The notes under the pieces: generated by a model
What the model was told of the DNA's origin: nothing
Seen by the model: the letters and a program-made list of their open reading frames with translations, nothing else
Database searches by the model: none
In this document: positions 1,055 through 22,214 of the stretch, piece by piece
How positions within the stretch are numbered: position 1 is the first letter of the stretch
Layout of the letters: every line of letters begins with the position of its first letter
Assembly (NCBI RefSeq): GCF_003217575.1
Contig: NZ_QJTC01000016.1
Span: forward strand, 1-64,000
DNA length: 64,000 bases
DNA from: Xylophilus ampelinus
Lineage (GTDB): Bacteria > Pseudomonadota > Gammaproteobacteria > Burkholderiales > Burkholderiaceae_C
Direction: 5' to 3'
Position numbers and translations under genes: made by a program

Positions 1055-1124
1055 AATTACCCCTCAGTAGCCATTTGTTGCGGCTAGTAGCCAATGGCGT
1101 AAATGTGCCACCAGGAGTAAAAAT

Positions 1125-1436: not shown

Positions 1437-1924
1437 CCGTCGGGATCGGTGATGAAGGCGACGTCCTTCATCTTTCCCTGCTCGGGCCGCTTCTTGAACG
1501 GAACCCGCTGCGCGTCGAACCACTGCACCGCGGCCTGCAGGTCGGGTACCGCGAAGCAGATGTGGCCGAAGCCCTGGGGCTGGGCGTTGCCGTCGTGGTA
1601 GCGGAAGGCCGGGTCGTCCTCGGTGCCCCAGTTGTGCGTCAATTCCAGCACGCCGCGCTGCGAGAAGGTGTACTCGGTGCGGTCCGCCACATCGTCGGGC
1701 GCGCCGGGGCCGGTGCCGTCGGCATGCGCCAGGAAATACAGCGAGAACTTCATCTCGGGAAAGTCGAGCCTGCGCAGCAGCCGCATGCCCATCGTGCCGG
1801 TATAGAAGGCCAGCGCCACCGCCGGGTCTTTCACCCGCAACATGGTGTGGTTGAAGACGAAGCCGCGGGCGGCGGCGGGCGTTTCGGCGGCGACGCCGGG
1901 CTGGGTTTCGGTGCGGAAGGTCAT
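1385..1924 (-). CDS. gloA: Lactoylglutathione lyase (glyoxalase I)
   Basis: A 179-residue glyoxalase I that converts the methylglyoxal-glutathione hemithioacetal to S-lactoylglutathione in the cytoplasm. Metal-binding residues are visible at H26 (FNHTML), the Glu of VLELTHN, the His of GFGHICF and the Glu of YWIEIVEP. I chose ATG 1924 because residues from there match the family; an upstream extension would be low-complexity. The C-terminal tail (PSLSRNLGS) is followed directly by the putative mobile element, so the last few residues may not be ancestral. It diverges from the GTPase gene at 2109. Confidence 0.93.
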   Translation of the reverse strand: MTFRTETQPGVAAETPAAARGFVFNHTMLRVKDPAVALAFYTGTMGMRLLRRLDFPEMKFSLYFLAHADGTGPGAPDDVADRTEYTFSQRGVLELTHNWGTEDDPAFRYHDGNAQPQGFGHICFAVPDLQAAVQWFDAQRVPFKKRPEQGKMKDVAFITDPDGYWIEIVEPSLSRNLGS

Positions 1925-2108
1925 GGCAGGCTGGGTGCGTTCGGGGGATCGGCCATGATGCCGCAGCCCCTGCCTCCCAGGCGTAACCGGTCGCAGAAGG
2001 GCGCGCTGCCGGTAGCGGGGAAAATACCCGCTGTCCGGCGCTGCGCCGCCTCTCGATGTACGTGTCCGTCGCGGCGCACCGCCGCTTCTCCGAAGAAAGA
2101 ACTCCCGC

Positions 2109-3119: not shown

Positions 3120-3122
3120 GGT

Positions 3123-3176
3123 TGAATTGCTATAAAAAATATAGCGATAGGTCGTTGTTTTGAGAAGGCTACAGCC
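3123..3176 (+). repeat. Dispersed intergenic repeat, family A, copy 1 (diverged)
   Basis: A TTGCTATAAAAAATATAGC half followed by a GGCTACAGCC half, located just after ylqF. It is the most diverged of five related copies in the window (see 30192, 38206, 46100, 58786). The segment 3162-3186 can also form a hairpin between two convergent genes, but no T-run follows on either strand. Confidence 0.5.
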
Positions 3177-3193
3177 ACTTCTCATCTAAAAAA

Positions 3194-3424
3194 TCAGTCG
3201 TCGCCGTCCTGCCGGGCAGGCTTGCGCACCCAGCCGAACCACACGATCACCAGCACCGGAACCGCCAGCGCGATCGACGACACCGTGTCGCCCCAGCCGT
3301 CGTAGACCAGCGCGGCCAGCAGGCCGAAGATCGACAGCAGGCCCATCACGACAGGCCAGCCCCACAGCGCCAGGGCCTGGGCACGCCGCTCGCGGGCGTG
3401 GATGTTGGAGTGCGAATGGCTCAT
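3194..3424 (-). CDS. Small two-span membrane protein of the iron-uptake operon
   Basis: A 76-residue protein starting at ATG 3424, overlapping the stop of the PepSY gene as ATGA, so the two are probably translationally coupled. It has a His-rich N-terminus (MSHSHSNIHARERR), two hydrophobic segments (about residues 17-38 and 45-66) and a charged tail. Proteins of this size often follow PepSY/TonB-receptor genes in beta-proteobacteria. A role in handling the siderophore or iron at the inner membrane is inferred from position only. Confidence 0.75.
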   Translation of the reverse strand: MSHSHSNIHARERRAQALALWGWPVVMGLLSIFGLLAALVYDGWGDTVSSIALAVPVLVIVWFGWVRKPARQDGDD

Positions 3425-4587
3425 CGTTTTTTCAACCAGAGGTACAGGCCCGAGCCCAGCACGAAGATCGTGGCGATGTCGAGCAGCGCCCACAGGATCT
3501 GCAGCGGCAGGCCGCCGTAATCGCCGAAGTGCAGTGGCTGCGACACCAGCAGCGCGGTGGCGTACCAGGGCAGCGGACGGCTATCGGTGACCTTGCCGGT
3601 CTGCGCGTCGACGAGCACCGGCTGCAGCAGCCGCGAGGTGAGCGGGGTGTTGCCCTTCATGAATACCGCGTAGTGGTGCGGGCTGGAGAAATTGCTGCCG
3701 GGAAACGCTACGAAGCGCAGCTTCATGTCGGGCAGCAGGGCCTCGGCCGCATCGACCGCCTGCTGCAGCGGGGCCGGGTTCGTCGCCGGCGGCAGGCCCT
3801 TGTAGGGCGCGACCATCTGCGCCATCTGGTCGTTCTGCCAGTACTTGAAGATCAGATCGGCCCAGGTGGCGATCGTGCCGGTGCCGCCCACGACGAACGC
3901 CCACACCAGCGTCACCACGCCCAGCAGGTTGTGCAGGTCGAGCCATTGGGTGCGGGCCTTGCGGTCGCGCCGAACGGTGCCGAACGCGAGCTTGCGCATG
4001 AAGGGCGCGTACAGCACCACGCCCGAGACGATCGCCACCAGCAGCAGCAGGCCCATGAAGCCCAGGAAGAGCTTGCCCGGCAGGCCGGCGAACAGGTCGA
4101 CGTGCAGCTTGAACATGACGTACATGAAGCCTTCGTCGAACGGCGGGTGCGCCAGCTCGCGGCCGGTGCGGGTGTCGAACATCAGGCTGGTGAAGCCGTC
4201 GGTGGCGTCGGCCATGGTGTTGAGGGTGACGAAGGCCATGCGGTCGTCGTCCTCGTCCGGGCCGTAGAACTGCATCACCTTGCCGGGATGCATTTCCTTG
4301 GCGCGGGCGATGGTGGTGTCGACGCTCACCCGCGGCGTGTCGGCGGCCATCGCGGGCGGCTCGACCTCGGTGCCCAGCAGGTGGCCGATCTCGTGGTGGA
4401 AGATCAGCGGCAGGCCGGTCAGGCACAGCAGCAGCATGAAGGTGGTGCTGACCAGGCTGGACCACTTGTGCACCCAGGTCCATTTGCGGATGGCCGAGGA
4501 GCTGAGGTAGCGGTGCGGCGCACGCGCCTGCGGCACTGCGGTGCCGTCTGGAATGGTGGTGGTCGTCGTCGTGGGGAGGGTCTGCAT
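3421..4587 (-). CDS. PepSY-associated TM domain protein (iron-siderophore uptake)
   Basis: A 388-residue inner-membrane protein. I see four hydrophobic segments (near residues 38-60, 177-200, 228-250 and 360-382) with PepSY-like periplasmic stretches between them and several membrane His residues, including FHHEIGHLL and WLDLHNLLG, that could bind haem. Family members act as putative ferric-siderophore reductases. ATG 4587 gives an N-terminal Thr run (TTTTTT) before the first helix. It follows the TonB receptor by 20 bases and overlaps the small gene downstream. Confidence 0.9.
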   Translation of the reverse strand: MQTLPTTTTTTIPDGTAVPQARAPHRYLSSSAIRKWTWVHKWSSLVSTTFMLLLCLTGLPLIFHHEIGHLLGTEVEPPAMAADTPRVSVDTTIARAKEMHPGKVMQFYGPDEDDDRMAFVTLNTMADATDGFTSLMFDTRTGRELAHPPFDEGFMYVMFKLHVDLFAGLPGKLFLGFMGLLLLVAIVSGVVLYAPFMRKLAFGTVRRDRKARTQWLDLHNLLGVVTLVWAFVVGGTGTIATWADLIFKYWQNDQMAQMVAPYKGLPPATNPAPLQQAVDAAEALLPDMKLRFVAFPGSNFSSPHHYAVFMKGNTPLTSRLLQPVLVDAQTGKVTDSRPLPWYATALLVSQPLHFGDYGGLPLQILWALLDIATIFVLGSGLYLWLKKR

Positions 4588-6777: not shown

Positions 6778-6969
6778 TCTTTTATAAACGCTGTCTGAAC
6801 GGGAAAGGCCCTGTTGCGCACATCCGACGGCCTGCGCCGGTCCCGACGCGGCCTATCCCGCGTCAGCGTCAGCGTCCGCCGCCCCGCCCCGCCCCGCCCG
6901 GCACCTGCGCATGCCGCCGGTGGGTTGCACGCCGCATGGCTGATCGCCAAGTGCCCCGGTCGGCCTCCG

Positions 6970-7404
6970 TCAGCCGTCGGGACCCGCGGCCGCGCCGATG
7001 CCCGGCAGCGCCCGCGGCCGGCCCCGCTCGTCGATGGCCACGTAGGTGAGCGTCGCCTCGGTCACCTTGAAGTAGCGGCCCTGGTCGATGAAACGCTCGG
7101 CGAACACCTCGATCTGCACTGTGACCGAGGTGCGGCCGACGCGCACCAGCGAGCCGTAGAACGACAGGATGTCGCCCACCCGCACCGGCTGCTTGAAGAC
7201 GAATTCCTTCACCGCCACCGTCGCCATGCGGCCTTTGGCTCGGCGCATGGGCATCACCGAGCCGGCCAGATCTACCTGGGCCATCACCCAGCCGCCGAAG
7301 ATGTCGCCGTTGGAGTTGCAGTCCGACGGCTGGGGTATCACCTTCAGTACCAGTTCCTTGTCGGTGGGCAAAGGAAGGCCGTGGGGGCTGCGGAGGTCGG
7401 TCAT
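6970..7404 (-). CDS. Acyl-CoA thioesterase, YciA-like hotdog fold
   Basis: A 144-residue hotdog-fold enzyme that hydrolyses acyl-CoA thioesters in the cytoplasm. The segment NSNGDIFGGWVMAQVDLAG carries the Asn/Asp and Gly-rich helix of the YciA/BACH class. I chose ATG 7404, although GTG 7410 would add two residues. The end is low-complexity. It is divergent from the ABC exporter, sharing a 52-base promoter region. Substrate range (short- to medium-chain) follows from the family, not from this sequence. Confidence 0.88.
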   Translation of the reverse strand: MTDLRSPHGLPLPTDKELVLKVIPQPSDCNSNGDIFGGWVMAQVDLAGSVMPMRRAKGRMATVAVKEFVFKQPVRVGDILSFYGSLVRVGRTSVTVQIEVFAERFIDQGRYFKVTEATLTYVAIDERGRPRALPGIGAAAGPDG

Positions 7405-7456
7405 GGGCACAATTCCGGCTAGAACAAAAACACAGCTTGTTATTTTCTCTTACCCC

Positions 7457-9399
<1,943 letters not shown>

Positions 9400-9459
9400 A
9401 AAGTGCTGGAAGCCGGCTTGCGGCGCAGGCCTCTAGCTATCATTTCAGGAGTGATCGAC

Positions 9460-10398
9460 ATGACAGAAAAGACGACCTTGCTGGTGACCATCGCCCTGTC
9501 GGATGCGCACCGCGCCCAGGTGGCGGAGCGCTATGACACGCTGTATGCGCCCACCGCCGCCGAGCGCGCCGCCGCCATCGCCGCCCACGGCACCCGCATA
9601 CGCGCGGTGCTGACCAACGGCACCGTCGGCCTCACCGCGACCGAGATCGAGGCGCTGCCGGTGCTGGAACTGGTCTGCGCGATGGGCGCGGGCCACGAGA
9701 ACATAGATTCGGCCGCGGCCCGCGCACGCGGCATCGCGCTGGCCAACGGCGCCGGCACCAACGACGATTGTGTGGCCGACCATGCCTTCGGCCTGCTGAT
9801 CGCCGCGGTGCGCGGCATCGTCAAGCTCGACCAATACACCCGCGCAGGCGGCTGGCGCGACGGGCTGGCGTTTCCGCCCAACGTGTCGGGCAAGCGACTG
9901 GGCATCGTCGGCCTGGGCACCATCGGCCGCAAGATCGGCCGCCGCGCCGAGGGCTTCGACATGGCGATGGGCTACCACAACCGCCGCGCGGTGGAGGGCA
10001 GCGCCTACACCTATTTCGATTCGGTGCGCGCGCTGGCCGAGTGGGCCGATTTCCTCGTCGTCGCCACGCCCGGCGGCCCGGCCACGCGCCATCTGGTGAA
10101 CGCCGAGGTACTGGCCGCGCTGGGTCCGCGCGGCGTGCTGGTCAACATCGCCCGCGGCAGCGTGGTCGATACCGCCGCGCTCGCCGCCGCCCTGCAGGCC
10201 GGCACCATCGCCGGCGCGGGCCTCGACGTGTACGAGAGCGAGCCGCACCGGCCCGCATCGCTGGTCGGCCTCGAGACCCTGGTCATCACGCCCCACGTGG
10301 CCGGCTGGTCGCCCGAGGCGGTGCAGCGGTCGCTCGACCAGTTCCTGCACAACGCCGACGGCCACTTCGCCGGCCGGGGCGTGGTGGCGCCGATCTGA
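9460..10398 (+). CDS. D-isomer-specific 2-hydroxyacid dehydrogenase
   Basis: A 312-residue NAD(P)-dependent dehydrogenase of the glyoxylate/hydroxypyruvate reductase class. It shows the Rossmann motif GIVGLGTIG, the catalytic Arg in NIARGSVVDT, the Glu in LDVYESEP and the His in TPHVAGWS. ATG 9460 follows a good CAGGAG site; an upstream start would overlap the ABC gene. The reaction is reduction of a 2-oxoacid to a D-2-hydroxyacid. The physiological substrate cannot be assigned. It is the last clearly backbone, GC-rich gene before the island. Confidence 0.88.
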   Translation: MTEKTTLLVTIALSDAHRAQVAERYDTLYAPTAAERAAAIAAHGTRIRAVLTNGTVGLTATEIEALPVLELVCAMGAGHENIDSAAARARGIALANGAGTNDDCVADHAFGLLIAAVRGIVKLDQYTRAGGWRDGLAFPPNVSGKRLGIVGLGTIGRKIGRRAEGFDMAMGYHNRRAVEGSAYTYFDSVRALAEWADFLVVATPGGPATRHLVNAEVLAALGPRGVLVNIARGSVVDTAALAAALQAGTIAGAGLDVYESEPHRPASLVGLETLVITPHVAGWSPEAVQRSLDQFLHNADGHFAGRGVVAPI

Positions 10399-10687
10399 GT
10401 GGGGCTCGGCGCGCGCGTGCCCGTGCCGGCGCTTGCGCGCGATCGTCGGCAGGGCTCGAGGGCGCGCGTCGATCCCTCGCGTGCGAGCGCTCGGCATCAA
10501 GCATTGCATCACCGGTATGGTTTTCATATTCATTGGTTTCATTGGAGAAAATATTCTGCGAAGCATTTGAATGCCGACCGGTGCTTACTTATGGACTTCC
10601 TTCTGGTCTCGTTATTGAACACATTGTTCAAAACCATTCTTGCTGGAGCTGGCAGGGGTTCGATAAAATCGTGACCAACCAAAACCC

Positions 10688-11050
10688 GAAAAAAGAGTGT
10701 TGAAACATCGTGCCGTGTCCGGGCACCGCCAAGGCCGGCACCGGCGTGTCTATCGTGTCCGGCGTGGCCGCGACTTCGGCGAAGGCACGGGCGTCCGCGA
10801 TCTCCGGGAACAACACGCCGAAGCCTTTCTGCCGGAGCGCATCGGCGGCGATCGGCACCCGCGACCGGCCCGTAGTCGCTGTGAAGGTGGTTCGGCTCGC
10901 AATGCGAGCGGCCGACCGGTCGGTGCATGCGCCGCCAGCGCCACGGTCTGGTCGGCATCGGTGCAGTAGCCGCGCGTCGATCAGGGCCGCGGCGCCGTCG
11001 CCCATGCGCACGAAGACGATGCCGTTCGCCGGGAGCCGGCCGCGCTTCCA
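10688..11050 (-). pseudogene. Decayed metallo-beta-lactamase-fold hydrolase remnant
   Basis: No intact gene spans 10399-11160. On the minus strand, pieces in different frames read in the order of an MBL-fold enzyme: VRMGDGAAALIDA (strand before the metal site), then LHSDYGPVAG (like the HxHxDH loop), then LAVPGHGT (like the late PGHG loop). The spacing is too short and the frames change, so the gene is internally deleted and inactive. The AT-richer stretch 10490-10690 beside it holds nothing I can identify. Confidence 0.4.
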
Positions 11051-11160
11051 TCGGTGTGCCTCAAGCGCGCCTGCGCCATCACCTCACCTGCATGCGCTTT
11101 GTCGAGCGGTTTCGGAGGCCGCTCTTATCACGGAGCCGGACCTGATTGGATAGTCGAAGA

Positions 11161-11880
11161 ATGACGATGCCAACAGGCTCTCCGCTGTCCAGCGCCATCA
11201 ACCTCATGGCTATAGTATTTGATGAAAAGACCAAGCCAGATTTTCTCTGGACGATGATGGCTGCTACCCGAAAGATCGGGTTCGACCGCTTCCTCGTCGA
11301 TGCTCACTGGTACGACCAGAAGGGTGCGCTTGTCCATCAGATCGCCAGCAATTACCCGGTCGAATGGCCGCGGATCTGCGCGGAGCGAGAATGCATCGTG
11401 CCCGATCCGACGATCGTTCACTGTCGAACGAGTACCGATGCTCTTGCCTGGACAACACATCTGTTCGAGAATACCGACGCTCTCGATTTTCCGGAGCACA
11501 CCACATCGCAAGGCGTCGAATTCTGCTTCAGCGTGCCGGTGTGCGAAGCCCGTGGGGGCGTCAAAAGCATGATCAGATTGGTCCGAGACAAGCCGTTGAC
11601 CGCTGAGATCGGGGAAACCGAGCTGTTGATCGCGGCCGGCAAAGTGCTCGCGAGTTGCGCCTATTTCTCATACCTTGGCCCATCAAAATTGATAGTGGTA
11701 CGAGGTTCGCCGCGAATGTCAAATGGGCGCTTCGCCATGGAGGAAACCAGAATGTCGCTTCCACTCGGAAATCGTTCTCGATGGCCCATCGGGTCATTCC
11801 AGCAAGCGTGTCAATCATCGACGCCTGCCGAGGGGCGTCTGTCAGCGGCCGAAGTGTACCCACACGTACAGGGACTTCGC
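11161..11880 (+). pseudogene. LuxR-type quorum-sensing regulator, frameshifted before its DNA-binding domain
   Basis: From ATG 11161 about 165 residues match an acyl-homoserine-lactone binding domain. The conserved Tyr (SNYP), Trp (VEWP), Asp-Pro (VPDPTIV), Trp (LAWTT) and Gly (SQGVEF) line up with LuxR ligand residues. The original frame then becomes meaningless. A LuxR-like helix-turn-helix remains recognisable in another frame between about 11695 and 11850 (VKWALRHGGNQNVAS, then SVSIIDACRGAS), with a degraded recognition helix. No luxI is present in the window, so this was a LuxR solo. It lies one base before the dioxygenase gene and probably once controlled the operon. Confidence 0.65.
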
Positions 11881-11881
11881 G

Positions 11882-12580
11882 ATGCATACCGCTGAAGCAT
11901 CACGCGCGCCGGTGCAGTATTTTCATCGTAAGCATCTCTTCCGCAACGCACCGAGCCGCCACGAGATAGAGGCATTTGTGGAAACCTGGTCGCGACTTAA
12001 GCCGGATAAATATCTCGAAAATCCCGCCAATAGATCTCGCAGGGTTGCGAAGTTCGTCTTTTCACACGATGACGAGATAATTCGACCCATTTCGGATACC
12101 TGCTTTTTTCAGAAAAGCGCGATCAATTCGCTGCTGGGAGGCATCAATCGAATCTACGAGCGCAGCGAAGCCGCATTCCTCGGCTCCCCCGTTTTGAAAG
12201 ATATTCTCGATCAAGATTGCCGGCATGTCTGCGATATCGACGACCGTAAATCGTGGCTCATTACCTGCCACCAGTTTCGGATTCACTGCCGGGCCGGAGC
12301 GTTCGGGCAGCCGACGCCCGAAGGATTGCACTGTGATGGCCATTCCTTCGTCTTCCAGCATTTCATTCAAAAAAATTCCGTCGTGGGCGGGCAGAGCCGC
12401 ATCTGTTCCAGAAATGGCACGACGCTGGCGCTCTTGACACTCGATACGTTTCTGGAAACCATCTTTCTCGACGACCGGGAACTTTTGCATGAAGTCAGTT
12501 CGCTCGCGCTCGCTCCGGAGTCGGTCCGAGAGGGTTTCCGGGACATGCTCATCGTCGACTTCGACGCTGTGGAGGCATAG
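11882..12580 (+). CDS. 2-oxoglutarate/Fe(II) dioxygenase, amino-acid hydroxylase type (PF10014-like)
   Basis: A 232-residue product starting at ATG 11882. The Fe(II) facial triad is visible as H150, D152 (GLHCDGHSF) and H203 (ELLHEVSS), with the GG turn VVGGQSRI and LDDRELLH typical of the free-amino-acid dioxygenases related to L-isoleucine 4-hydroxylase. Such enzymes hydroxylate an amino-acid side chain using 2-oxoglutarate and oxygen. It is the first gene of a tight operon, two bases ahead of the PLP enzyme. GC content is well below that of the flanking genes. The substrate is unknown; an aliphatic amino acid is a reasonable guess. Confidence 0.82.
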   Translation: MHTAEASRAPVQYFHRKHLFRNAPSRHEIEAFVETWSRLKPDKYLENPANRSRRVAKFVFSHDDEIIRPISDTCFFQKSAINSLLGGINRIYERSEAAFLGSPVLKDILDQDCRHVCDIDDRKSWLITCHQFRIHCRAGAFGQPTPEGLHCDGHSFVFQHFIQKNSVVGGQSRICSRNGTTLALLTLDTFLETIFLDDRELLHEVSSLALAPESVREGFRDMLIVDFDAVEA

Positions 12581-12582
12581 CC

Positions 12583-13860
12583 ATGAATGCATCCAGCCCT
12601 GCTTCCGTTCTGCGCCCTTCGCATGAGAGCGTTCTCTCTCTGGTTCGCTCGGAACAGAAGAGGCGTCGTCGCACGATATCGCTGACCGCCAACGAAAACG
12701 TCCTCTCGAATACGGCTCGCATGCTGGGAACCGGGCCGGAGTACGACCGATACTATTTCAACTGCCGGTTTCCAATCAACTCTCGATATGCCGGAAACTA
12801 CAATGGCATGGAAGTCGAGTCGTTCCCCGAAATCGACATGCTCAAGCTCTGTGCATCGCATGCAGCGGCCGCCCTCTTCGGGGCACCCTATGTCGAGTAC
12901 CGCGTGCTATCCGGCGTTCACTGCACAATTTCCTCCATCGCGTCATTGACCAAGGCGGGGCAGGCCGTAATTTCGATCGCCAGCGACTCCGGCGGGCATT
13001 TCGCCACTCCGCACATCGTAGAGAAACTGGGGCGGCGCTCACTTGGATTGCGGCTGAACGGGTTCGAGTTCGATCTCGACGCGTTGAAACGCACGATCGC
13101 ACCGGTGTTGGGTACGGTAGGCATGGTTTTGATCGACCACGGGATGACCACCTCGCCGATTCCCGTACGACGTCTGCGGAGTTTTCTCGACGAGTGGGGC
13201 TTGGCTCGCATTCCCATCATCTACGACGCTTCGCACACCCTGGGCCTGATCGCGGGCGGGGTTTTTCCGAATCCGCTCGACGAGGCTGCAGCGGTGCTGC
13301 AGGGAAACACGCACAAGTCCTTTCCCGGTCCGCACCGGGCGCTCATGCTCACGCGTGACGAGCGGATATTTCGGCAGTTGTCCGAAGGGATCAGCTTCGG
13401 CTTCACTTCATCTCCGGGCCTGCACAGCCTCATCGAACTGTTCGTAAGCCTGCTGGAGATGGAGCGCTTCGCGGGCCGGTACGCAGCACGCATGATCGAC
13501 AACGCGAGCTTGATCACCGATGCGCTCTGCGGCGAGCAGGGGTGGGCGCCACAGGCGACAGCCACCCACATGGTTCTGGTGCAATCGGACAGAAGTGCGG
13601 CGATCGTGCGGCGGCTCAACGAGTTCGGTATCCGGGCGAACAACAAGGTGCTCGACGGTCGATCGTACATTCGCCTCGGCACCCAGGAGGTGACACGCCT
13701 GGGAATCGACGCTGACGAACTGGCATGTTTATGCGAACTGATAGGCAGCGTAGGAAGAGGGCTCGACGGGTCTCATGAGCGAAGGCTGTTCAACGATATC
13801 GCCTGCCAGCTGCGACGCGTTCACTACAGCTTCGACGAGCAGCAGGATTTGCACCAATGA
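12583..13860 (+). CDS. SHMT-superfamily PLP enzyme (possible threonine-type transaldolase or aldolase)
   Basis: A 425-residue fold-type I PLP enzyme behind a GGAGG site. ISLTANENVLS (32-42) corresponds to the SHMT signature IASEN; GGHF (137-140) contains the stacking His; DASHTLGL has the PLP-binding Asp215; and GNTHKSFPGP places the Schiff-base Lys at 245. Housekeeping SHMT differs at several of these positions. From memory, the NEN and THKxxPGP forms resemble the L-threonine transaldolases (ObaG/LipK group) that make beta-hydroxy amino acids in natural-product pathways. I infer it forms or cleaves a beta-hydroxy or alpha-substituted amino acid. Confidence 0.75.
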   Translation: MNASSPASVLRPSHESVLSLVRSEQKRRRRTISLTANENVLSNTARMLGTGPEYDRYYFNCRFPINSRYAGNYNGMEVESFPEIDMLKLCASHAAAALFGAPYVEYRVLSGVHCTISSIASLTKAGQAVISIASDSGGHFATPHIVEKLGRRSLGLRLNGFEFDLDALKRTIAPVLGTVGMVLIDHGMTTSPIPVRRLRSFLDEWGLARIPIIYDASHTLGLIAGGVFPNPLDEAAAVLQGNTHKSFPGPHRALMLTRDERIFRQLSEGISFGFTSSPGLHSLIELFVSLLEMERFAGRYAARMIDNASLITDALCGEQGWAPQATATHMVLVQSDRSAAIVRRLNEFGIRANNKVLDGRSYIRLGTQEVTRLGIDADELACLCELIGSVGRGLDGSHERRLFNDIACQLRRVHYSFDEQQDLHQ

Positions 13861-13886
13861 GCAGAAGCCCGTGAGCAGAAGCCCGT
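13859..13886 (+). repeat. 14-bp tandem duplication at a gene start
   Basis: The unit GAGCAGAAGCCCGT occurs twice head to tail (13859-13872 and 13873-13886). With one copy removed, ATG 13857 would overlap the upstream stop as ATGA and read straight into the ATP-grasp frame (MSRSPCLVMGN). With both copies that ATG hits a stop after five codons. Confidence 0.9.
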
Positions 13887-15124
13887 GTCTTGTGATGGGC
13901 AACGTACGCGATGGGGAATACGAGGGTCTCCTGGCGAACGGGATCACGCCGCTGCTGCTGGGCGACACGAAGTCCACCTCGAAGATCGCAAGCGATAGCC
14001 GTGTCCAAACGGTGGATGTGGTGGACTTCGCCACGATCGATCTTTCGGCACTGGTCAAGCGAATCGAAGACCTCTATTCGGAACACCGGTTCAGCAGCAT
14101 CCTGAATTTCAGGGAAATTTACGTCAAGCAGACAAGCGAGGTATGCACTGGCACAACGAGGTTCAGGGGATTTCACCGCAATGTCGAGAACGCGCTGGAC
14201 AAGCAGCGTCAGCGACAGCTCTACAACCGTTCCCCCAACCCCGATCTGCCTGTCGCCTCGCGTTTGGCCACGTTTGAGGAACTTGCCTGCGCGTCGGGTT
14301 CGGCATTCGAATATCCATTCGTGGTCAAGCCGGCCAATCTCTACAGCAGCCTCTTCGTCAGCGTGATCAGAAACGAAGCCGATTTGCGTCAATACCTGCG
14401 TACAGATGTCCCACGATTGATCTCTTACGAGCAGGATCACGGCACGATGGTCAACGGTGTTCTGATCGAAGAGTTCCTGGAAGGCTCCAACCACTCCATC
14501 GACTGCGCCGTCGGTCTCGCAGGCGAGGTGATGACGTTTCCCATCGTAGACGTCATCACCGGAAGAGACCTGGGGTATCGCGACTTCCATCACTTCGCAC
14601 GCTATTGCCCATCGCTCATAGACGAGGATCCGAAACTGCAGGCCCGTTGCCACCAGCTGGCGCGTGATGCTGTTCGCGCCCTCGAACTGCGGGGGACCTT
14701 CGCGCACGTCGAGTTCATCCGCACGCCGATCGGCCCAAGGATTCTCGAGGTCGGTGCTCGACCGGGCGGAAATCGGATTCACGTTCTTCGAAACGCGTGG
14801 GGCATCCACATGGACGTCGCGTACCACCGAGCACTTTCGGGCGTATCGCCACCGAAGACTGGAAAGTCCGCAATACCGTTCGGCATCGCGACGCCCTTTC
14901 CACGCAGGACGATGCAGTTCACAGCCGTCCACCGGTTGGCTGAGATTTCCCAGATTCCCGGCTTCGTTCGCAGCTACACGTTCGTAAAGCCGGGCGACAT
15001 GGTCGGGCCGGCTGCAGAAGGATTTCAGAACGCGGTTTACTTCGAGTTCCGCCGCGATACGGTCGCGCAACTGCGCGCGTCACTTCTCGCGGTCGCCGGC
15101 TTCGACATCTATGAAGACGAGTAA
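13871..15124 (+). CDS. ATP-grasp ligase 1 (carboxylate-amine ligase)
   Basis: A 417-residue ATP-grasp protein from GTG 13871, the first usable start after the tandem duplication; ATG 13895 is the alternative. The central lysine (YPFVVKPANLYSS), the ATP-binding loop (GVLIEEFLEGSNHSIDCAV) and the Mg-binding EVGARPGGNRI are visible, the last diagnostic of the carbamoyl-phosphate-synthase-like group that includes amino-acid ligases. Such enzymes activate a carboxylate as acyl phosphate and join it to an amine. It is followed by a second ATP-grasp gene overlapping by 14 bases. The ancestral ATG appears to have been disabled, so expression may be weakened. Confidence 0.82.
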   Translation: MSRSPCLVMGNVRDGEYEGLLANGITPLLLGDTKSTSKIASDSRVQTVDVVDFATIDLSALVKRIEDLYSEHRFSSILNFREIYVKQTSEVCTGTTRFRGFHRNVENALDKQRQRQLYNRSPNPDLPVASRLATFEELACASGSAFEYPFVVKPANLYSSLFVSVIRNEADLRQYLRTDVPRLISYEQDHGTMVNGVLIEEFLEGSNHSIDCAVGLAGEVMTFPIVDVITGRDLGYRDFHHFARYCPSLIDEDPKLQARCHQLARDAVRALELRGTFAHVEFIRTPIGPRILEVGARPGGNRIHVLRNAWGIHMDVAYHRALSGVSPPKTGKSAIPFGIATPFPRRTMQFTAVHRLAEISQIPGFVRSYTFVKPGDMVGPAAEGFQNAVYFEFRRDTVAQLRASLLAVAGFDIYEDE

Positions 15125-16268
15125 GCCCCGCGTGCTCATAGTAGGAGGTCGCGACTCCGGTGTGGACTGGCCCGGGCGGGAAGACTTCGAACTGTTCCTG
15201 GTACAGGAACATGCGCATGTCAGTCCTCGTCAAGCCGAGATTGCATCCGTCGTCGAGGTCGGCGATCTTTCGTTCGTCGATTCTTATTTGCCGGTATTGA
15301 AAAAACTCCATCACGATCTTCGGTTTGCGGGAGTCGTTTCCTTCTTCGAAAAAGGACTGTTGCCGGCTGCAGAGATTGGCGAACTGCTCGACATACCCCA
15401 CAACAGCCGCTTCAGCGTCGAGACTACGAGATGCAAAACCGACCTTCGAGAACTGCTGATCGGAACTTCCCACGAAGTCCCGTTCGCCCTCGTGCGCAAC
15501 GACGAAGCGGTGCGCACGTTCTTTCGCACGCATGGATGTTGCATCGTCAAGCCGGTGGACGGGTCCGGAAGCGTCGAGATCCACAAAGTGGAAAGCGAAC
15601 GTTTTTCACTGCCGACCCTGAACCGCGAATTCCTGGCCGAGAAATTCCTGGAAGGAGCCGAATACAGCGTTGAGACCTTCACACACGACAGGCGGCACCG
15701 GCTTCTCGGCGTCACGAAGAAGTACACGACGGGAGCCTCGAACTTCGTCGAAACAGGCCATGACTTCCCCGCGGACCTCCCGGCAGAGGTGCAGGAACGC
15801 ATTCGGGACGCAGTCGTCTGGTTGTTGGATCGGATCGGTCATGTTTGGGGTCCGTGTCACACCGAAGTGAAGGTCGCAGAGGACGGAGTTCATTTCATCG
15901 AGACCCAGACGCGATTCGGAGGAGACCAGATTTGGGAAATGGTTTGGCGTACGACGGGTGTGCACCTTGCGGCCGCGACCGTCTGTGCGCTCGCCCGCAG
16001 GCCTTATCTGCCTTCGCCGGTCGAGTTTTCAGCCATGGCGGTAAGGTTTCCGCAGCTTCCGGCCGGCACCGATGCAGTTCGCCTGCGAGACACCCTTGAG
16101 CGGCAAGCTTTCGCAATCAGAGCCGAATTAAAAGAAGTGAATTTTGGCACGCCCTTCCTGTCGTCATCGCGACGCCATGGCTACGTCATGTTCGGTTGTA
16201 GATCCGATGACCGCGCCGAATTTCGGGCGGCGATCGAGCGTGATTTTTTGTTAAACTGCAAGGAGTAG
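15111..16268 (+). CDS. ATP-grasp ligase 2 (carboxylate-amine ligase)
   Basis: A 385-residue ATP-grasp enzyme starting at ATG 15111 inside the end of the preceding gene. Visible motifs are the lysine in CCIVKPVDGSGSVE, FLAEKFLEGAEYSVET, and the Mg/ATP site HTEVKVAEDGVHFIETQTR followed by FGGDQI. This is the BacD/DdaF-like arrangement found in L-amino-acid ligases. It is divergent in sequence from ligase 1, so the two probably catalyse successive or different couplings, for example one peptide bond each. The gene ends two bases before the next start. Confidence 0.85.
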   Translation: MKTSKPRVLIVGGRDSGVDWPGREDFELFLVQEHAHVSPRQAEIASVVEVGDLSFVDSYLPVLKKLHHDLRFAGVVSFFEKGLLPAAEIGELLDIPHNSRFSVETTRCKTDLRELLIGTSHEVPFALVRNDEAVRTFFRTHGCCIVKPVDGSGSVEIHKVESERFSLPTLNREFLAEKFLEGAEYSVETFTHDRRHRLLGVTKKYTTGASNFVETGHDFPADLPAEVQERIRDAVVWLLDRIGHVWGPCHTEVKVAEDGVHFIETQTRFGGDQIWEMVWRTTGVHLAAATVCALARRPYLPSPVEFSAMAVRFPQLPAGTDAVRLRDTLERQAFAIRAELKEVNFGTPFLSSSRRHGYVMFGCRSDDRAEFRAAIERDFLLNCKE

Positions 16269-16270
16269 TC

Positions 16271-17164
16271 ATGGTGCAAGCACTCTATAGAACCGACTTC
16301 GATGTTGTCCGGCACTTCCCCAGAATCTCATTTTCGACCAACGTCTACGACAATCCCGCCGACATTCTCGGGTCCATCAAAAGCCTTGGTCAGCATTTCG
16401 ACGCGGTCGAGTTCGAGGTGGGCGAGGCAGCGGAGAAGGTATTCTGGTCGCTGAGTCCGGCACAACGAAAAGAACTCGCGCAACGGATTTCGGACTATGC
16501 GCAGGAATCGGGCATCGAATTGACCGTCCATGCCGGTTGGTGGGGGCGGGAATACAACCTTTGTTCTGCCGACATGTCCGAGCGCGCCGTGGCCATTCAG
16601 AAGCTTGCCGACACAGTCGAATTCTCGCGCATCGCGGGCGCAACCAGCGTGAGCTTTCATCCAGGCTATAAGGACTCACACGAAAATGCCGTGTTGCTCG
16701 AAAATTTAATCCAGGCACTGAATGCGACCAAGGCTATCTGCGACCATGAAAATTTGCACTTATGTCTCGAAAACATGGGAGACCAGCGCCCCCGCTATCC
16801 GATATTCTCGATGGCGGAGCACCGTCGATTTCATGAGCAAACAGGGTGCCATGTCACCATCGACGTAACGCACCTTTGCTCGCTTTTTGCATATGGTCCT
16901 CAGTTGTTTTCGGCCATCGAGGCGATCGCACCGATTACCCGTCATTTGCACGTCGCGGACCTTGACGGCATGAAGCACCAGCATTTGCCGCTGGGGGAAG
17001 GAAATTTACCGCTCACCGATGTCCTCAACAGGTTTGCGATGAGCGGTTACCGAGGGGTCGCCGTGGTGGAGGAGTTCATCAGGAGCTACGCCACGCAGTT
17101 CTATCTCGATCGAGCAATAGAATACCGTAAAAATATCGAAGATTTAATCGCTCAAATACATTGA
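16271..17164 (+). CDS. Sugar-phosphate isomerase/epimerase-like TIM barrel (AP endonuclease 2 family)
   Basis: A 297-residue TIM-barrel protein behind an AAGGAG site. Likely metal ligands are in LTVHAGWWG, VSFHPGYKD, LCLENMG, TIDVTHLC, HLHVADLDG and VVEEF, which follow the strand order of the xylose-isomerase-like family. Members isomerise or epimerise sugars, but related barrels also act on keto acids and inositols. In this operon it may supply or rearrange a hydroxyketone or aldehyde substrate for the PLP enzyme; that is inference. Its TGA overlaps the next ATG as TGATG. Confidence 0.78.
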   Translation: MVQALYRTDFDVVRHFPRISFSTNVYDNPADILGSIKSLGQHFDAVEFEVGEAAEKVFWSLSPAQRKELAQRISDYAQESGIELTVHAGWWGREYNLCSADMSERAVAIQKLADTVEFSRIAGATSVSFHPGYKDSHENAVLLENLIQALNATKAICDHENLHLCLENMGDQRPRYPIFSMAEHRRFHEQTGCHVTIDVTHLCSLFAYGPQLFSAIEAIAPITRHLHVADLDGMKHQHLPLGEGNLPLTDVLNRFAMSGYRGVAVVEEFIRSYATQFYLDRAIEYRKNIEDLIAQIH

Positions 17165-17853
17165 TGAATACTATCGAACATCGGGTGGTCGATAAGGAGG
17201 CATGGGACGGGCTCGCCGATACGGCCCCCTTTGTTTTTTCTATTTTCATCTCTTTTTTGCTGTTCGGAATAATCGGCCAAAAAAAAGGGTTTGACGGACT
17301 TGCACTCTGTTTGATAACCGGTTCGATGATGTCGGAGCCTTTGCAACTCACGCTTCTCAATGCGCCCGTCGAATCGTTGAGTCTCACCGGTGTGGCTGTT
17401 TCTGCGTTGAGCGCCAACCTGCGGTTTGTGATATTCACTATTTCCATAAGGAGGCAACTGGCTGGTTCCCTGGCCCGGCATGTTCCGGCGCTGGCCGTGA
17501 TGGCGAATGCGGCTTACACATTAATATCCCTGCGTCAGCAGTCTCAGGTGGTCAGCGTGAAGTATACGAATGCCGTCTGCTTCTCGCTCTACGGAGCAGC
17601 GCTGACGGGCACTGTCGTGGGGTATGCCGCGGGGCTGCATCTAGGCAGCCATATGACCGAGCACGCAACAGCAGCACTCGCGATTTTTATTTGCTCGCAG
17701 CTTGGCAAGATGTCATCGAGTCGGAACCTCCTCTACACGATGCTCTTCGTCGGTTTTACCGGCATGTGTCAACTTTGGCTATTTGGAGGCATCAGCCTGA
17801 TGTTTTCGTTTCTCGGTGCCGTCGCATTCACATATATATATGACCGCGCATAA
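17164..17853 (+). CDS. azlC: AzlC family amino-acid exporter, large subunit
   Basis: A 229-residue membrane protein with several hydrophobic segments starting near residues 22, 47, 75, 102, 140 and 185. FVFSIFISFLLFGIIGQ, the MMSEPLQ segment and the terminal aromatic helix match the AzlC family, which with AzlD exports branched-chain amino acids and analogues such as 4-azaleucine. ATG 17164 overlaps the preceding stop. In this operon it would export the product or protect the producer. It is less GC-rich than housekeeping genes. Confidence 0.8.
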   Translation: MNTIEHRVVDKEAWDGLADTAPFVFSIFISFLLFGIIGQKKGFDGLALCLITGSMMSEPLQLTLLNAPVESLSLTGVAVSALSANLRFVIFTISIRRQLAGSLARHVPALAVMANAAYTLISLRQQSQVVSVKYTNAVCFSLYGAALTGTVVGYAAGLHLGSHMTEHATAALAIFICSQLGKMSSSRNLLYTMLFVGFTGMCQLWLFGGISLMFSFLGAVAFTYIYDRA

Positions 17854-18172
17854 TTCAATTTGGTTTTACGTTCTGATCTGCGCGGGCGTTTCATTGATGT
17901 GTCGGTTACTGCCGTTGCTTCTCGATATCGACTCCCTGGGGACGGGCCCGCGTCGTTTTATCGAGCGGCTGGGACGATATGCCGCAGTCGTCCTTCTGAC
18001 GATCATCCTGTTGAACGTGATGGCCGGATTGAATCCGGGACTTTCAACGCACCATGGATTGTTCATCGGTGCGGCCGGCGCAATCTTCTTGTCGATGCGC
18101 GGCCTCAAGCCTTACGTGGCATTTTTTATAGGTCTGTCCATCTACGTTTTCTGTCAAGTCATCGCGCAATGA
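17840..18172 (+). CDS. azlD: AzlD family amino-acid exporter, small subunit
   Basis: A 110-residue protein with about four membrane segments, starting at ATG 17840 and overlapping azlC by 14 bases. The motif CRLLPLLL near the start and the Gly/Leu-rich later helices fit AzlD, the small partner of AzlC. It is the last gene of the island operon. The 250 bases that follow (18173-18423) contain no gene or clear terminator that I can see. Confidence 0.78.
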   Translation: MTAHNSIWFYVLICAGVSLMCRLLPLLLDIDSLGTGPRRFIERLGRYAAVVLLTIILLNVMAGLNPGLSTHHGLFIGAAGAIFLSMRGLKPYVAFFIGLSIYVFCQVIAQ

Positions 18173-18423
18173 AGCCGCCGGGGGCAGGACTCGAGCGCAA
18201 CACGTGGGTTGTCTAACGCTGTCGGCAGTACGCTCCGATCAGCCGCGAGCCCTGGATCTGCCTCTCAGTTCGTCGGGTCGATGCACAATCTTTGCAAGCT
18301 ATCGTTTTCCCAAGACCTGTCATCTTACGGATTCCTTTCGGTAGAGCCGATCGGTTCGGCGCTTTGCCGCAAAGGGGTGTGCGAGGATCTGCCTCTTTCA
18401 GGCAGCTCGTCTCGCCCACTCCC

Positions 18424-19386
18424 ATGCTCGCCCGCCTGCAGCAATGCATTACCTTCGGATTGCTCACGGTCGCGGTCGTCTGGCTGGCCGCCTGGTGGCG
18501 GTATTGCCCTGTGGTCGCTGTGGTGGGTGCACTGGCGACGCTGTTCGGCTACACCGTATTCCTGGCGGTCGAATGCATGCTGATGGTGGGCGCGCACCGG
18601 GGCGATCCAGCACCCGCGCCCCGGCCCGGCCAGGTGCTGCGCGCCTGGCTGCACGAATGCGTCACCTCACCGCGCGTGTTTTATTGGCGTCAGCCGTTTC
18701 GATACCGCGCCGTGCCCGACCACCTGCCGGCCGACGGCAGCGCCGAGGGCCGGCGCGGTGTGGTGCTGGTGCACGGCCTGTTCGGCAACCGGGGCTTCTG
18801 GACGCCGTGGATGCAGCGACTGCGCCGAAGCGGCCATCCTTTCGTGGCCGTGAGTCTGGAGCCGGTCTTCTGCTCGATCGACGATTACGCGCCCACGATC
18901 GACGCCGCCGTCGCCCGGCTGCAGGCCCTCACCGGCCGCCCGCCGGTGCTGGTCTGCCACAGCATGGGCGGCCTGGCGGCGCGCGCGTGGCTGCGCCGGG
19001 CGCGGGCGCAGGGCGATGGGAACGCTGCCGCCCGGGTGCACCGCATCGTCACCATCGGCACCCCGCACCACGGCACCGTGCTGGCGCACTGCAACCGCGG
19101 CGTGCACGCGCTGCAGATGCGGCCGGGCAGCGACTGGCTGGCCGCGCTGGCGCGGTCGGAGCCGGTCGGGCAGACGGCGCTCTTCGACTGCTGGTACTCC
19201 AACTGCGACCATATCGTGTTTCCTTGCAGCACCGCCGCGCTGCCGGGCGCCGACAACCGCCTGGTCGCCGGGTTGCCGCATGTGGCGCTGGCGTTTCACC
19301 CGCCCCTGGTGCGGGCGGTGTTGGACGAGGTCGGGCAGGGCGGCCGAAGCGGCGAAGCGGCGCACCTTTGGGCGATCCCGTTGTGA
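18424..19386 (+). CDS. Membrane-anchored alpha/beta hydrolase (triacylglycerol lipase-like)
   Basis: A 320-residue protein from ATG 18424 with two N-terminal hydrophobic helices (residues 9-28 and 32-55), then an alpha/beta-hydrolase domain. The oxyanion region is VVLVHGLFGNRGFW, and the nucleophile elbow is VCHSMGG with the catalytic Ser. IVTIGTPHHGT is typical of bacterial lipases and PGAP1-like esterases. A His near the end (GLPHVAL) could complete the triad. Substrate unknown. Base composition returns to the GC-rich backbone here, so it marks the right edge of the island. Confidence 0.85.
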   Translation: MLARLQQCITFGLLTVAVVWLAAWWRYCPVVAVVGALATLFGYTVFLAVECMLMVGAHRGDPAPAPRPGQVLRAWLHECVTSPRVFYWRQPFRYRAVPDHLPADGSAEGRRGVVLVHGLFGNRGFWTPWMQRLRRSGHPFVAVSLEPVFCSIDDYAPTIDAAVARLQALTGRPPVLVCHSMGGLAARAWLRRARAQGDGNAAARVHRIVTIGTPHHGTVLAHCNRGVHALQMRPGSDWLAALARSEPVGQTALFDCWYSNCDHIVFPCSTAALPGADNRLVAGLPHVALAFHPPLVRAVLDEVGQGGRSGEAAHLWAIPL

Positions 19387-19409
19387 TTACGAGGGCGATG
19401 CCGTAGGCT

Positions 19410-19429
19410 GAATGCGAATGACTTAGAAT
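19410..19429 (+). promoter_or_regulatory. Candidate Fur box upstream of the PepSY reductase
   Basis: GAATGCGAATGACTTAGAA lies about 140 bases before the reductase start and shares AATGCGAAT with the site upstream of the siderophore receptor (6757-6777). It suggests iron control of both. The match to the classical 19-bp palindrome is partial. Confidence 0.35.
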
Positions 19430-19571
19430 CCGAAGCCTTCCTGTGCTCGCCCTTCGGGCGGCGGGTACCGGTGCCTCGGGCACCGTCGTCCGGGCACCGG
19501 CGTTCCTGCCTTGTGCGGCCCGTACTCCGTGGAGTCGGCACCGTGCCTCTCCATTCCCTCGCCCGACGTCC

Positions 19572-22154
19572 ATGCCGCTGTTCAAGACAATCTGGTTCCA
19601 GCTGCACTGGTGCGTCGGCATCACCGCCGGCACTGTGCTGATAGTGATCGGGCTCTCGGGTGCGACGCTGTCGTTCCAGGGCGAGCTGCTGGACCTGTTC
19701 AACCCCGCCAGCGCGTCGATGCCGCTGCGCCCCGGCCGCCCGCTGCTGACGCCGCAGCAGCTGGTCGACGCGGCGCGCGGCGCTGGACAGGGGCGGGCGG
19801 TGCAGCGGGTTACCGTGTTCGCCGACCCGACGCTGCCGGCGCAGATCGTTTTCGTGCCGTTGCCCGGCCAGCGGCGCGGGCTGGCGGTGCGGGCCGACCC
19901 GGTGAGCGGCGAGGTGCTGCCCGCGCAGCGCGGCGCGGCCTTCTTCGACTGGGCCGAGCGGCTCCACCGCTGGCTGCTGCTGCCGCGCGATACCGGCAAG
20001 TCGGTCACCGGCACGCTGGCCGCCTGCCTGCTGCTCCTGGCGCTCTCGGGCCTCTACCTGCGCTGGCCGCGGCGCCCGCTGGCCTGGCGCACTTGGCTGA
20101 CCTTCGACACCCGGCTCGCCGGCCGGTCGTTCCTGTGGGGGCTGCATTCGGTGCTGGGCACCTGGGCGCTTGCGGCCTATGTCGTGTTCACGCTGAGCGG
20201 CCTGTACTGGGCCTTCGACGCGGTTCGGGTGCCGGTCGACCGCTGGGCCGGCGCGCCGCCGCATAGGGCGGCCGCACCGCGCCCGGCCGATGCGGGCGGC
20301 CCGCCGGCGGCACCGGATTTGGCGTCGGCGTGGATCAGCTTCGCGCGTATTGCGCACGGCTGGCAACTGGCGCAGTGGCGACTGCCCGAGCGCGCCGGGC
20401 AGCCGGTGCAGATCTTCTGGATGGGCGAAGACGCTGCGCACGACCGCGCCCGCAATCGACTGCATCTGCGACCCGACGGCAGCGTGCTGCTCGACGAGCG
20501 TTATGCCGACCTGCCGCGCGGCCAACGCTTTTTGGGTGCGATCTATCCGCTGCACCTGGGCAGCTATTTCGGCCTGCCGGGCCGCATCGCCATGATGCTG
20601 GCCGGCCTGTGCCTGCCGCTCTTCGTGATCACCGGCTGGATGCTTTACCTGGGCCGGCGCCGCGCCGCGCGGGCGGTGCGGCGCGAACGCGAAGCGCTGC
20701 AGGTCGCCGCACCGGGCCCGCCGTCCTCAGCAGCGGCCGGCGAGTCGGTGCTGGTCGCCTTCGCCAGCCAGTCGGGACGGGCGGAGCGGCTGGCGGTGCG
20801 CACCGTGGCCGCGCTGCGGGCGGCGGGTGCGGCGGCCACGCTGGCGCCGGTGACGCAGCTCGGCACCGAGCGGCTGCGCCACCACCGCCGGGTGCTGCTG
20901 GTGGCCAGCACCTTCGGCGAGGGCGATCCGCCCGACATGGCCCGCCGCTTCGCCCGCATCCTGGCCCGGACCGAAGGCGTGGTGCTGCCGCACCTGAAAT
21001 TCGGCCTGCTGGCGCTGGGCGATCGGCAATACGCCGCGTTCTGCGGCTGCGGCCACGGGCTGGTCCACCACCTGCAGCGGCTGGGCGCGCAGCCCCTGTT
21101 TCCGCCGGTCGAGATGGATGGCGAGGACCCGGCCGCCTGGACCCGCTGGCAGTCGGCCGTCGGCCGGCACCTGGGACTCGCGTTGCCGCAGGATGCGCAG
21201 GGGACTGCCGCCGCAGGACCCGAGGCGGAACCCGCCCGGCCGTGGCGCTTGGCGGAGCGGCGCTGGTTGAACCCGGGCAGCCTGGGTGCCCCGCTGTTCC
21301 GGGTGGTGCTGACGCCGCCTGCGGGCGTTCCGGCCGTCTGGCAGCCTGGCGCGCTGGTGGAGGTGTTTCCCCGGCATGCGGCCGACGTGGTGACCTCGGT
21401 GCTGCGTCGCGAGGGGTGGGACGGCACCGCGCCGGTCGCAGGCCCTGCGGGTGACTCCACCCTGGCGGAGCTGCTGGCCGGCAGCGTGCTGCCCGCGCCC
21501 GGTGCGCAGGCGCCGGACGCCGCGCCGCAGCAGGTGGCCGACGGGCTGCGGCCGCTGGCGCCGCGCCGGTACTCCGTCGCATCCTTGCCGGCCGACGGCA
21601 CGGTGCAGCTGCTGGTGCGGCAGGTGCGCCACGACGCGGGGCTCGGCCTCGCTTCGGGCTGGCTCAGCACGCACTCACCAGTGGGCGCCGAGGTGGCGAT
21701 GCGGCTGGAGGAGAACCCGGACTTCGCGCTGGCCGATGGCGACGGGCCGGCGATCTTCATCGGCAGCGGGTCGGGCTATGCGGGGCTGCGGGCGCTGCTG
21801 ACGGCACGGATGCGGGCCGGCCACGGCCGCAACTGGCTGCTGTTCGGCGAACGCCAGCGGGCGCACGACAGTTTTTGCGAAGACGAAACCGCCGGCTGGC
21901 AGGCCCGCGGCCTGCTGGCGCACCGCGACTTCGCCTATTCGCGCGACCAAGCCGGGCGGGTCTACGTGCAGGACTGCCTGCGGGCCGAGGCGCACCGGCT
22001 GCGGGGTTGGATCGGCGAGGGTGCGACGCTGTACGTCTGCGGCAGCCTGGACGGCATGGCCGCAGGGGTGTACGCGGCGCTGGCCGAGCTGCTGGGCGCC
22101 GACGCGGTGGAAGACCTGATCGCCGACGGCCGCTACCGGCGCGACGTGTACTGA
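19572..22154 (+). CDS. PepSY-flavodoxin-FAD/NADPH reductase fusion (CysJ-like, iron-reductase type)
   Basis: An 860-residue inner-membrane fusion. Residues about 1-370 are a PepSY transmembrane module with at least four helices (FQLHWCVGITAGTVLIVIGLSG, then segments near 150, 195 and 335). Residues about 390-530 are a flavodoxin-like FMN domain (VLVAFASQSGRAERLA, STFGEGDPPD). The remainder is an FAD/NADPH reductase module (RRYSVASL, IGSGSGYAGLRA, YVCGSLDGMA). Electrons would pass from NADPH through FAD and FMN to membrane haem or metal and reduce ferric siderophores at the periplasmic face. ATG 19572 starts directly before the first helix. Confidence 0.88.
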   Translation: MPLFKTIWFQLHWCVGITAGTVLIVIGLSGATLSFQGELLDLFNPASASMPLRPGRPLLTPQQLVDAARGAGQGRAVQRVTVFADPTLPAQIVFVPLPGQRRGLAVRADPVSGEVLPAQRGAAFFDWAERLHRWLLLPRDTGKSVTGTLAACLLLLALSGLYLRWPRRPLAWRTWLTFDTRLAGRSFLWGLHSVLGTWALAAYVVFTLSGLYWAFDAVRVPVDRWAGAPPHRAAAPRPADAGGPPAAPDLASAWISFARIAHGWQLAQWRLPERAGQPVQIFWMGEDAAHDRARNRLHLRPDGSVLLDERYADLPRGQRFLGAIYPLHLGSYFGLPGRIAMMLAGLCLPLFVITGWMLYLGRRRAARAVRREREALQVAAPGPPSSAAAGESVLVAFASQSGRAERLAVRTVAALRAAGAAATLAPVTQLGTERLRHHRRVLLVASTFGEGDPPDMARRFARILARTEGVVLPHLKFGLLALGDRQYAAFCGCGHGLVHHLQRLGAQPLFPPVEMDGEDPAAWTRWQSAVGRHLGLALPQDAQGTAAAGPEAEPARPWRLAERRWLNPGSLGAPLFRVVLTPPAGVPAVWQPGALVEVFPRHAADVVTSVLRREGWDGTAPVAGPAGDSTLAELLAGSVLPAPGAQAPDAAPQQVADGLRPLAPRRYSVASLPADGTVQLLVRQVRHDAGLGLASGWLSTHSPVGAEVAMRLEENPDFALADGDGPAIFIGSGSGYAGLRALLTARMRAGHGRNWLLFGERQRAHDSFCEDETAGWQARGLLAHRDFAYSRDQAGRVYVQDCLRAEAHRLRGWIGEGATLYVCGSLDGMAAGVYAALAELLGADAVEDLIADGRYRRDVY

Positions 22155-22214
22155 GCAGCGCCTATGCGGTCCGGAACGCGACCGACTCCACCAGGAAACC
22201 GGGCCTCGCCCCGT

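Follow-up and report, generated by a model that had tools for sequence, protein, structure and literature searches.

The 64,000-nucleotide stretch of Xylophilus ampelinus DNA analyzed here (contig NZ_QJTC01000016.1, positions 1 to 64,000; hereafter the window) raises the question of what is made by a tightly packed run of seven plus-strand genes that stands out from its surroundings by its low GC content. The open reading frame (ORF) list together with Pfam and NCBIfam confirms the seven families as a 2-oxoglutarate (2OG)/Fe oxygenase, a serine hydroxymethyltransferase (SHMT)-like pyridoxal phosphate (PLP) enzyme, two ATP-grasp ligases, a TIM-barrel protein, AzlC and AzlD. We consider it likely that these genes form a horizontally acquired pathway, independent of nonribosomal peptide synthetases (NRPSs), that uses a β-hydroxy amino acid to build a dipeptide or tripeptide natural product. 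The operon most likely occupies about 11882-18172 (~6.3 kb), with the oxygenase starting at 11882. A first-pass annotation, made from the DNA letters, had it begin at 11161, but 11161-11881 belongs to an autoinducer-binding ORF and not to the oxygenase. The same annotation described 2-base gaps or overlaps; the packing is indeed tight and includes overlaps, but the spacing runs from -14 to +10 bases (oxygenase/SHMT-like +2, SHMT-like/ligase 1 +10, ligase 1/ligase 2 -14, ligase 2/TIM +2, TIM/AzlC -1, and AzlC/AzlD -14 with an ATG at 17840).

The evidence for a β-hydroxy amino acid centers on the second gene (12583-13860), whose product is SHMT-like and, from Pfam and NCBIfam scores, a residue alignment and a tree, threonine-transaldolase-like. 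The window protein keeps Y57, H139, D215, K245 and R364. In an alignment of eight SHMT-like sequences, from seven loci with the five-enzyme core plus L007 and with loci L004 and L028 left out, the catalytic His, Asp and Lys and the PLP-site Arg (H139, D215, K245, R364) are invariant; these residues also align with chain 7k34, which we take to be ObiH. The SHMT catalytic glutamate, E57 in E. coli numbering, is replaced by Phe, Ile or Leu in each of the eight and is present in the genome's own GlyA. The four invariant residues equal those listed for ObiH in the available part of PMC10495429, which also describes several active transaldolases that lie in no known cluster; transaldolases form a lineage distinct from SHMT according to the available part of PMC5490192. 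Because SHMTs share the His/Asp/Lys/Arg set, however, that set alone does not separate the two activities.

Profile comparisons point in the same direction as the lost glutamate. The window protein passes the Pfam SHMT model (58.2 bits, cutoff 27) and scores 137.1 bits with the NCBIfam SHMT model, under its cutoff of 335, whereas the genome's own GlyA reaches 640.6. With the fluorothreonine-transaldolase (FTase) model TIGR04506 it scores 198.1 bits against a cutoff of 650. In all four cluster proteins scanned (window, L002, L008 and L022), the transaldolase model leads the SHMT model by 50 to 102 bits (198 vs 137, 195 vs 145, 257 vs 154 and 245 vs 180), and the GlyA control shows the reverse (121 vs 641). 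The stretches LTANEN, GGHFA and GNTHK..PGP are closer to 7k34 than to GlyA, and in the tree the GlyA rows are set off by a branch of 3.59 (100/100). A true SHMT was rejected because the glutamate is lost, the protein falls short of the SHMT cutoff and the genome encodes GlyA separately. The likeness to L-threonine transaldolases (ObiH of obafluorin, FTase, LipK) extends to catalytic residues and several sequence stretches. The window protein is 32.7% identical to a Streptantibioticus cattleyicolor protein (L038) that itself passes the FTase model with 1207 bits, whereas the window protein does not. It also differs from both 7k34 and GlyA in a longer loop after the Tyr55 position, and, unlike the known transaldolase systems, the operon holds no NRPS or nucleoside genes.

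The two ligases supply the peptide-forming part of the proposal. Ligase 1 (13871-15124) is taken to begin with GTG at 13871 because the ATG at 13857 meets a stop within a short direct tandem repeat (13857-13887); ligase 2 occupies 15111-16268. PF13535 is above cutoff in both, and a LAL_C2 match is seen in ligase 1 only, at 24.3 bits and so below the cutoff of 29.4. The best VIA match to the ligase 1 structure model is the L-amino-acid ligase 3vot (Z 35.3, rmsd, the root-mean-square deviation, 3.6 Å over 394 residues), and YwfE/BacD (3wnz) aligns with Z 32.1 and 3.2 Å, also over 394 residues. Ligase 2 matches 3vot in sequence with an E value of 4.6e-38. Both ligases therefore resemble L-amino-acid ligases, ligase 1 by fold and ligase 2 by sequence alone. 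They share one frame in six other loci (L002, L003, L004, L006, L008, L028); in the window and L022 each has a frame of its own, and in L005 a single frame is followed by a frame break. Bacilysin-type peptides are made without an NRPS, and the ATP-grasp ligases of such pathways (BacD/YwfE, BL00235, RizA) have the same fold. The operon differs in that its Pfam matches include no other bacilysin gene family and in that it adds a second ligase and the transaldolase-like and TIM-barrel enzymes.

The 2OG/Fe(II) dioxygenase (11882-12580) matches PF10014 (2OG-Fe_Oxy_2) with 166.4 bits, and its iron triad (H150, D152, H203) and R220 are conserved in all six aligned sequences. L-isoleucine 4-hydroxylase is among its relatives of known structure (E 5.4e-22). 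The window protein shares the fold family and the iron ligands of the PF10014 amino-acid hydroxylases (L-isoleucine 4-hydroxylase, HilB; TqaL), although the HilB equivalog model gives it 24.8 bits against a cutoff of 350. The xylose-isomerase-like TIM barrel (16271-17164) carries an epimerase/isomerase-type metal site: the tetrad E167, D198, H227 and E267 is invariant in seven of seven aligned sequences and matches the positions in D-psicose 3-epimerase, for which we assume the ligand identities. The best VIA rows for its structure model (pLDDT, the predicted local distance difference test, 87.9) are of the ketose 3-epimerase type (Z 25.1, 2.6 Å, 253-254 residues), and endonuclease IV entries follow at Z 22-24. 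Fold and tetrad are like those of D-tagatose/D-psicose 3-epimerase and MJ1311, at 14-21% identity among the 50 Foldseek matches listed, and the equivalog for the cobamide-remodelling enzyme CbiR gives 52.6 bits, under its cutoff of 105. The fold does not single out a substrate, as Z 22-25 is reached both by many epimerases and by endonuclease IV entries. The predicted exporter would consist of AzlC (17164-17853; Pfam 42.6 bits, cutoff 32.1) and AzlD (17840-18172); the latter scores 20.3 bits, under its cutoff of 23.7, and is assigned by position and by relatives at the same place in four of four enterobacterial loci.

From gene content and order, residues, folds and distribution, we infer reactions in the following order. 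The TIM-barrel isomerase would supply or reshape an aldehyde or hydroxy-ketone partner, the SHMT-like enzyme would build a β-hydroxy amino acid on a glycyl unit, and the 2OG oxygenase would hydroxylate an amino-acid side chain. One or two residues would then be added by the two L-amino-acid ligases, which most other loci encode as a single polypeptide, and AzlCD, or a major facilitator superfamily (MFS) transporter in other lineages, would export the product. Formation of a β-hydroxy amino acid, ligation and AzlCD export had been suggested earlier, and that model agrees with the residues, profile scores and folds. The isomerase is a candidate source of the acceptor aldehyde, with conversion of hydroxypyruvate to tartronate semialdehyde as an example only. 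A more specific version is put forward tentatively, as we think it rather unlikely: the genes would represent a new family of antimetabolite di- and tripeptides assembled by ligases and common to Enterobacterales, Actinomycetota and the lineage of the window. An unassigned group of threonine-transaldolase-like enzymes would make the core amino acid, and a dedicated TIM isomerase would feed them by converting a hydroxy-ketone to the acceptor aldehyde. If so, the hydroxypyruvate example would give dihydroxyglutamate. The isomerase-aldolase pairing is open to direct testing, and the PLP enzymes would enlarge the threonine-transaldolase-like enzymes, sought after as biocatalysts, by an uncharacterized group.

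The same genes recur elsewhere. The five-enzyme core is found in nine loci, and in all nine an exporter gene adjoins it or lies within 1 kb. A contig scan with the SHMT-like protein gave seven loci from 22 candidate stretches. AzlCD accompanies the core in five loci (window, L002, L003, L004, L028), with all seven genes in identical order; L002 is from Prodigiosinella, L004 from Serratia rubidaea, and L028 (genome G1152), the fourth AzlCD locus besides the window, was found by a profile of the TIM protein. An MFS exporter is present instead in the actinobacterial loci L005 (S. tuirus), L006 (Kitasatospora) and L008 (S. noursei) and in L022 of G364, a distant genome of the window's class. The actinobacterial order is 2OG-TIM-SHMT-ligase-ligase, and the MFS gene lies directly after the cluster in L005 and 0.6-0.9 kb before it in L008 and L006. 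In L022 (475-9751) the order is TIM, SHMT-like, 2OG, MFS, ligase 1 and a different ATP-grasp protein, followed by a protein with weak likeness to U32 and one resembling asparagine synthase; nearby, at 13188-15218, lies a ketosynthase ORF. The occurrence of one core with AzlCD in some loci and an MFS transporter in others suggests that the product is worth exporting in distant lineages.

L003 (genome G061) is labelled Chryseobacterium but is probably mislabelled; we count it as enterobacterial because it groups with the Prodigiosinella and Serratia genomes held by its family draw (G060, G062) and has a GC content of 51.5%, and for the same reasons a Bacteroidota member is not claimed. Upstream of its cluster (875-3801) an additional ATP-grasp ORF is accompanied by an MFS transporter and part of an aminotransferase; these may belong to a second small pathway or be what is left of one. 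As read from these sequences, then, the spread takes in Enterobacterales, Actinomycetota and the lineages of the window and G364. L004 and L028 are not far apart, since their cluster DNA is 89% identical, and dN/dS (nonsynonymous to synonymous rates) for this pair is 0.186 for the oxygenase, 0.093 for the fused ligases, 0.065 for the TIM protein and 0.064 for AzlC, pointing to purifying selection on these four reading frames. Frame breaks in L004 (SHMT-like gene) and L005 (oxygenase, ligase 2 and MFS) may reflect sequencing error or decay. The cluster is rare among the sampled genomes of the window's family (1 of 250 positive with the TIM profile) and order (1 of 300), in tallies whose samples overlap and count the query's own genome; the class gave 2 of 321. 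Around the L008 genome the tallies are 1/246 for the genus and 1/296 for the phylum, and elsewhere 1/295 for the order of the L002 genome, 4/198 for the family of the L003 genome and 1/7 for the order of G364.

How the operon reached its present site is addressed by its composition and flanks. The GC content of 11047-18172 is 56.5%, compared with 66.6-72.8% (mean 70.2%) in the other 85 overlapping 7-kb windows, taken at 500-base steps on both sides of the island within the 64-kb window, so that the lower GC reported in the first-pass annotation holds against every one of them. In a genome of the same genus, G001, DNA matching the left flank (6945-10402) and the right flank (18375-22201) at 92% and 88%, respectively, encloses 9.6 kb of different DNA with 72.9% GC. 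This DNA includes an ORF of metallo-β-lactamase fold (PF00753; L037, 12587-13507), and the minus-strand piece 10701-11046 of the window matches G001 at 81-82% in two pieces inside that ORF. The piece itself has no Pfam match, and as a remnant of an ORF intact in G001 it bears out, on the left, the gene decay earlier noted beside the operon. Because G001 carries other DNA at this site, the simplest reading is that the cluster replaced DNA here, with deletion. Horizontal transfer, likewise proposed earlier, is supported because the G001 site is differently occupied, the GC content is low and sampled relatives are without the cluster. No flanking repeats of at least 10 bases, direct or inverted, that would mark an insertion are present between 10380-11165 and 18165-18520. 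A plasmid origin was rejected, as plasmid matches to three of the proteins (SHMT-like, TIM, ligase 1) are distant, all at <60% identity, and a 3.7-kb flanking stretch is without a close plasmid counterpart; a phage origin was rejected with ligase 1, the one protein searched in phages, which had no match there.

Several observations weigh against the pathway proposed here. The main uncertainty is an aldehyde with no obvious source, and no cluster of known product anchors the chemistry. Other ATP-grasp families are close behind in the ligase 1 fold comparison, at Z 31 and below, and the second ligase of L022 is a different one (19% identity). Regarding the PLP enzyme, all cluster-protein transaldolase scores are far under 650, a profile ranks the solved SHMT 4bhd (207 bits) over 7k34 (181 bits), the C-terminal stretch resembles 4bhd, and the tree split around the fluorothreonine transaldolase is weak (42/95), with three long end branches. 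Together with the near tie of 4bhd and 7k34 in a single-sequence search (E 6.7e-28 and 1e-26), the low score, profile ranking and weakly resolved tree would fit a plain aldolase, or an α-substituting hydroxymethyltransferase acting on glycine or another amino acid, with the remaining pathway as proposed. The consistent lead of the transaldolase model, its reversal in GlyA and the three motifs common to 7k34 argue otherwise, and we regard this alternative as a serious one, if somewhat short of an even chance.

A broader alternative, a catabolic or primary-metabolism operon for folate, amino-acid or sugar turnover, draws on the primary roles of the SHMT, isomerase and amino-acid exporter families and on the Pfam SHMT match. 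The genome's separate SHMT, the glutamate lost in eight of eight sequences, the patchy distribution among sampled relatives and the presence of two peptide-type ligases with an exporter make it very improbable. The island could also be a relic in this strain, transferred and now decaying, with its product not made. The window copy may be impaired because its ligases are split, against one frame in six other loci, and its regulator has no helix-turn-helix (HTH); the adjacent gene remnant and the tandem repeat where ligase 1 begins add to this picture. The regulator is the plus-strand ORF 11161-11895, whose last 14 bases lie over the beginning of the oxygenase gene. This ORF matches the LuxR-type autoinducer-binding domain (Pfam Autoind_bind, 41 bits against a cutoff of 23) and has no HTH match at E≤5 in its own or two other frames tested; it is possibly a truncated quorum-sensing regulator. 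It has no relatives by tblastn (E≤1) in L002, L003, L028 or L022, a single 23-residue match in L037 (E 1), and two short ones in L004 (best E 0.005, 28%); the latter fall inside a GST-family ORF, and a regulator common to other loci was rejected on this basis. All seven frames are open, however, active-site residues are kept in the three enzymes checked (SHMT-like, TIM and oxygenase), the split still yields a pair of overlapping ORFs for which a start codon is available, and two separate ligases also occur in L022. We therefore think a relic unlikely.

As to precedent, the exact gene set had been called undescribed, and among the matches listed no description was found in open-licence PubMed Central papers, subscription papers, bioRxiv and MIBiG being outside the scope. 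The accompanying expectation of a shared gene order in unrelated genera with no characterized member also holds: a conserved set is found, and the literature searched gave no characterized member. A link to alahopcin/nourseimycin, which we take to be an S. noursei product, was tried and is unconfirmed, the single match listed concerning JMJD5. The available part of PMC9933511 places glyA and an ATP-grasp gene of Pantoea in two different clusters, and in that of PMC8868522 transaldolase occurs in the reference list alone and ATP-grasp in other contexts. The fungal E-64 pathway (PMC12568646), as its abstract presents it, is likewise NRPS-free, with an Fe/2OG oxygenase acting first and ATP-grasp ligation to an amino acid following; there, however, the oxygenase epoxidizes fumarate, an amide bond synthetase forms the second amide, and the abstract names no PLP or TIM enzyme. 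Each family is known in itself, and peptides built by ligases are an established kind of product; the combination is undescribed as far as could be seen. The operon offers a compact, defined gene set for finding a probable bioactive small peptide, also in Streptomyces noursei and Enterobacterales strains.

Other SHMT-like genes were met outside the complete clusters. None of six same-genus genomes holds a close relative of the window protein (best 30% identity). The SHMT-like genes of the same-genus genomes G002 (L024, 6793-7998) and G003 (L025, 6913-8013) were rejected as cluster members, the other window proteins having no matches in those 16-kb loci (E≤1e-3); their proteins fall on a well-separated branch, itself supported, that includes neither GlyA nor this cluster, and the L024 protein is under the SHMT cutoff (185 vs 335 bits). 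L007 (Silvanigrellales), the seventh locus of the contig scan, carries the SHMT-like gene alone (9992-11146), at a contig end. Finally, on a plasmid of Streptomyces NBC_00467 (L040, 8001-9209), an SHMT-like gene stands in a run with a gene annotated as clavaminate synthase, an NDP-hexose dehydratase gene and genes of the aminoglycoside phosphotransferase family.

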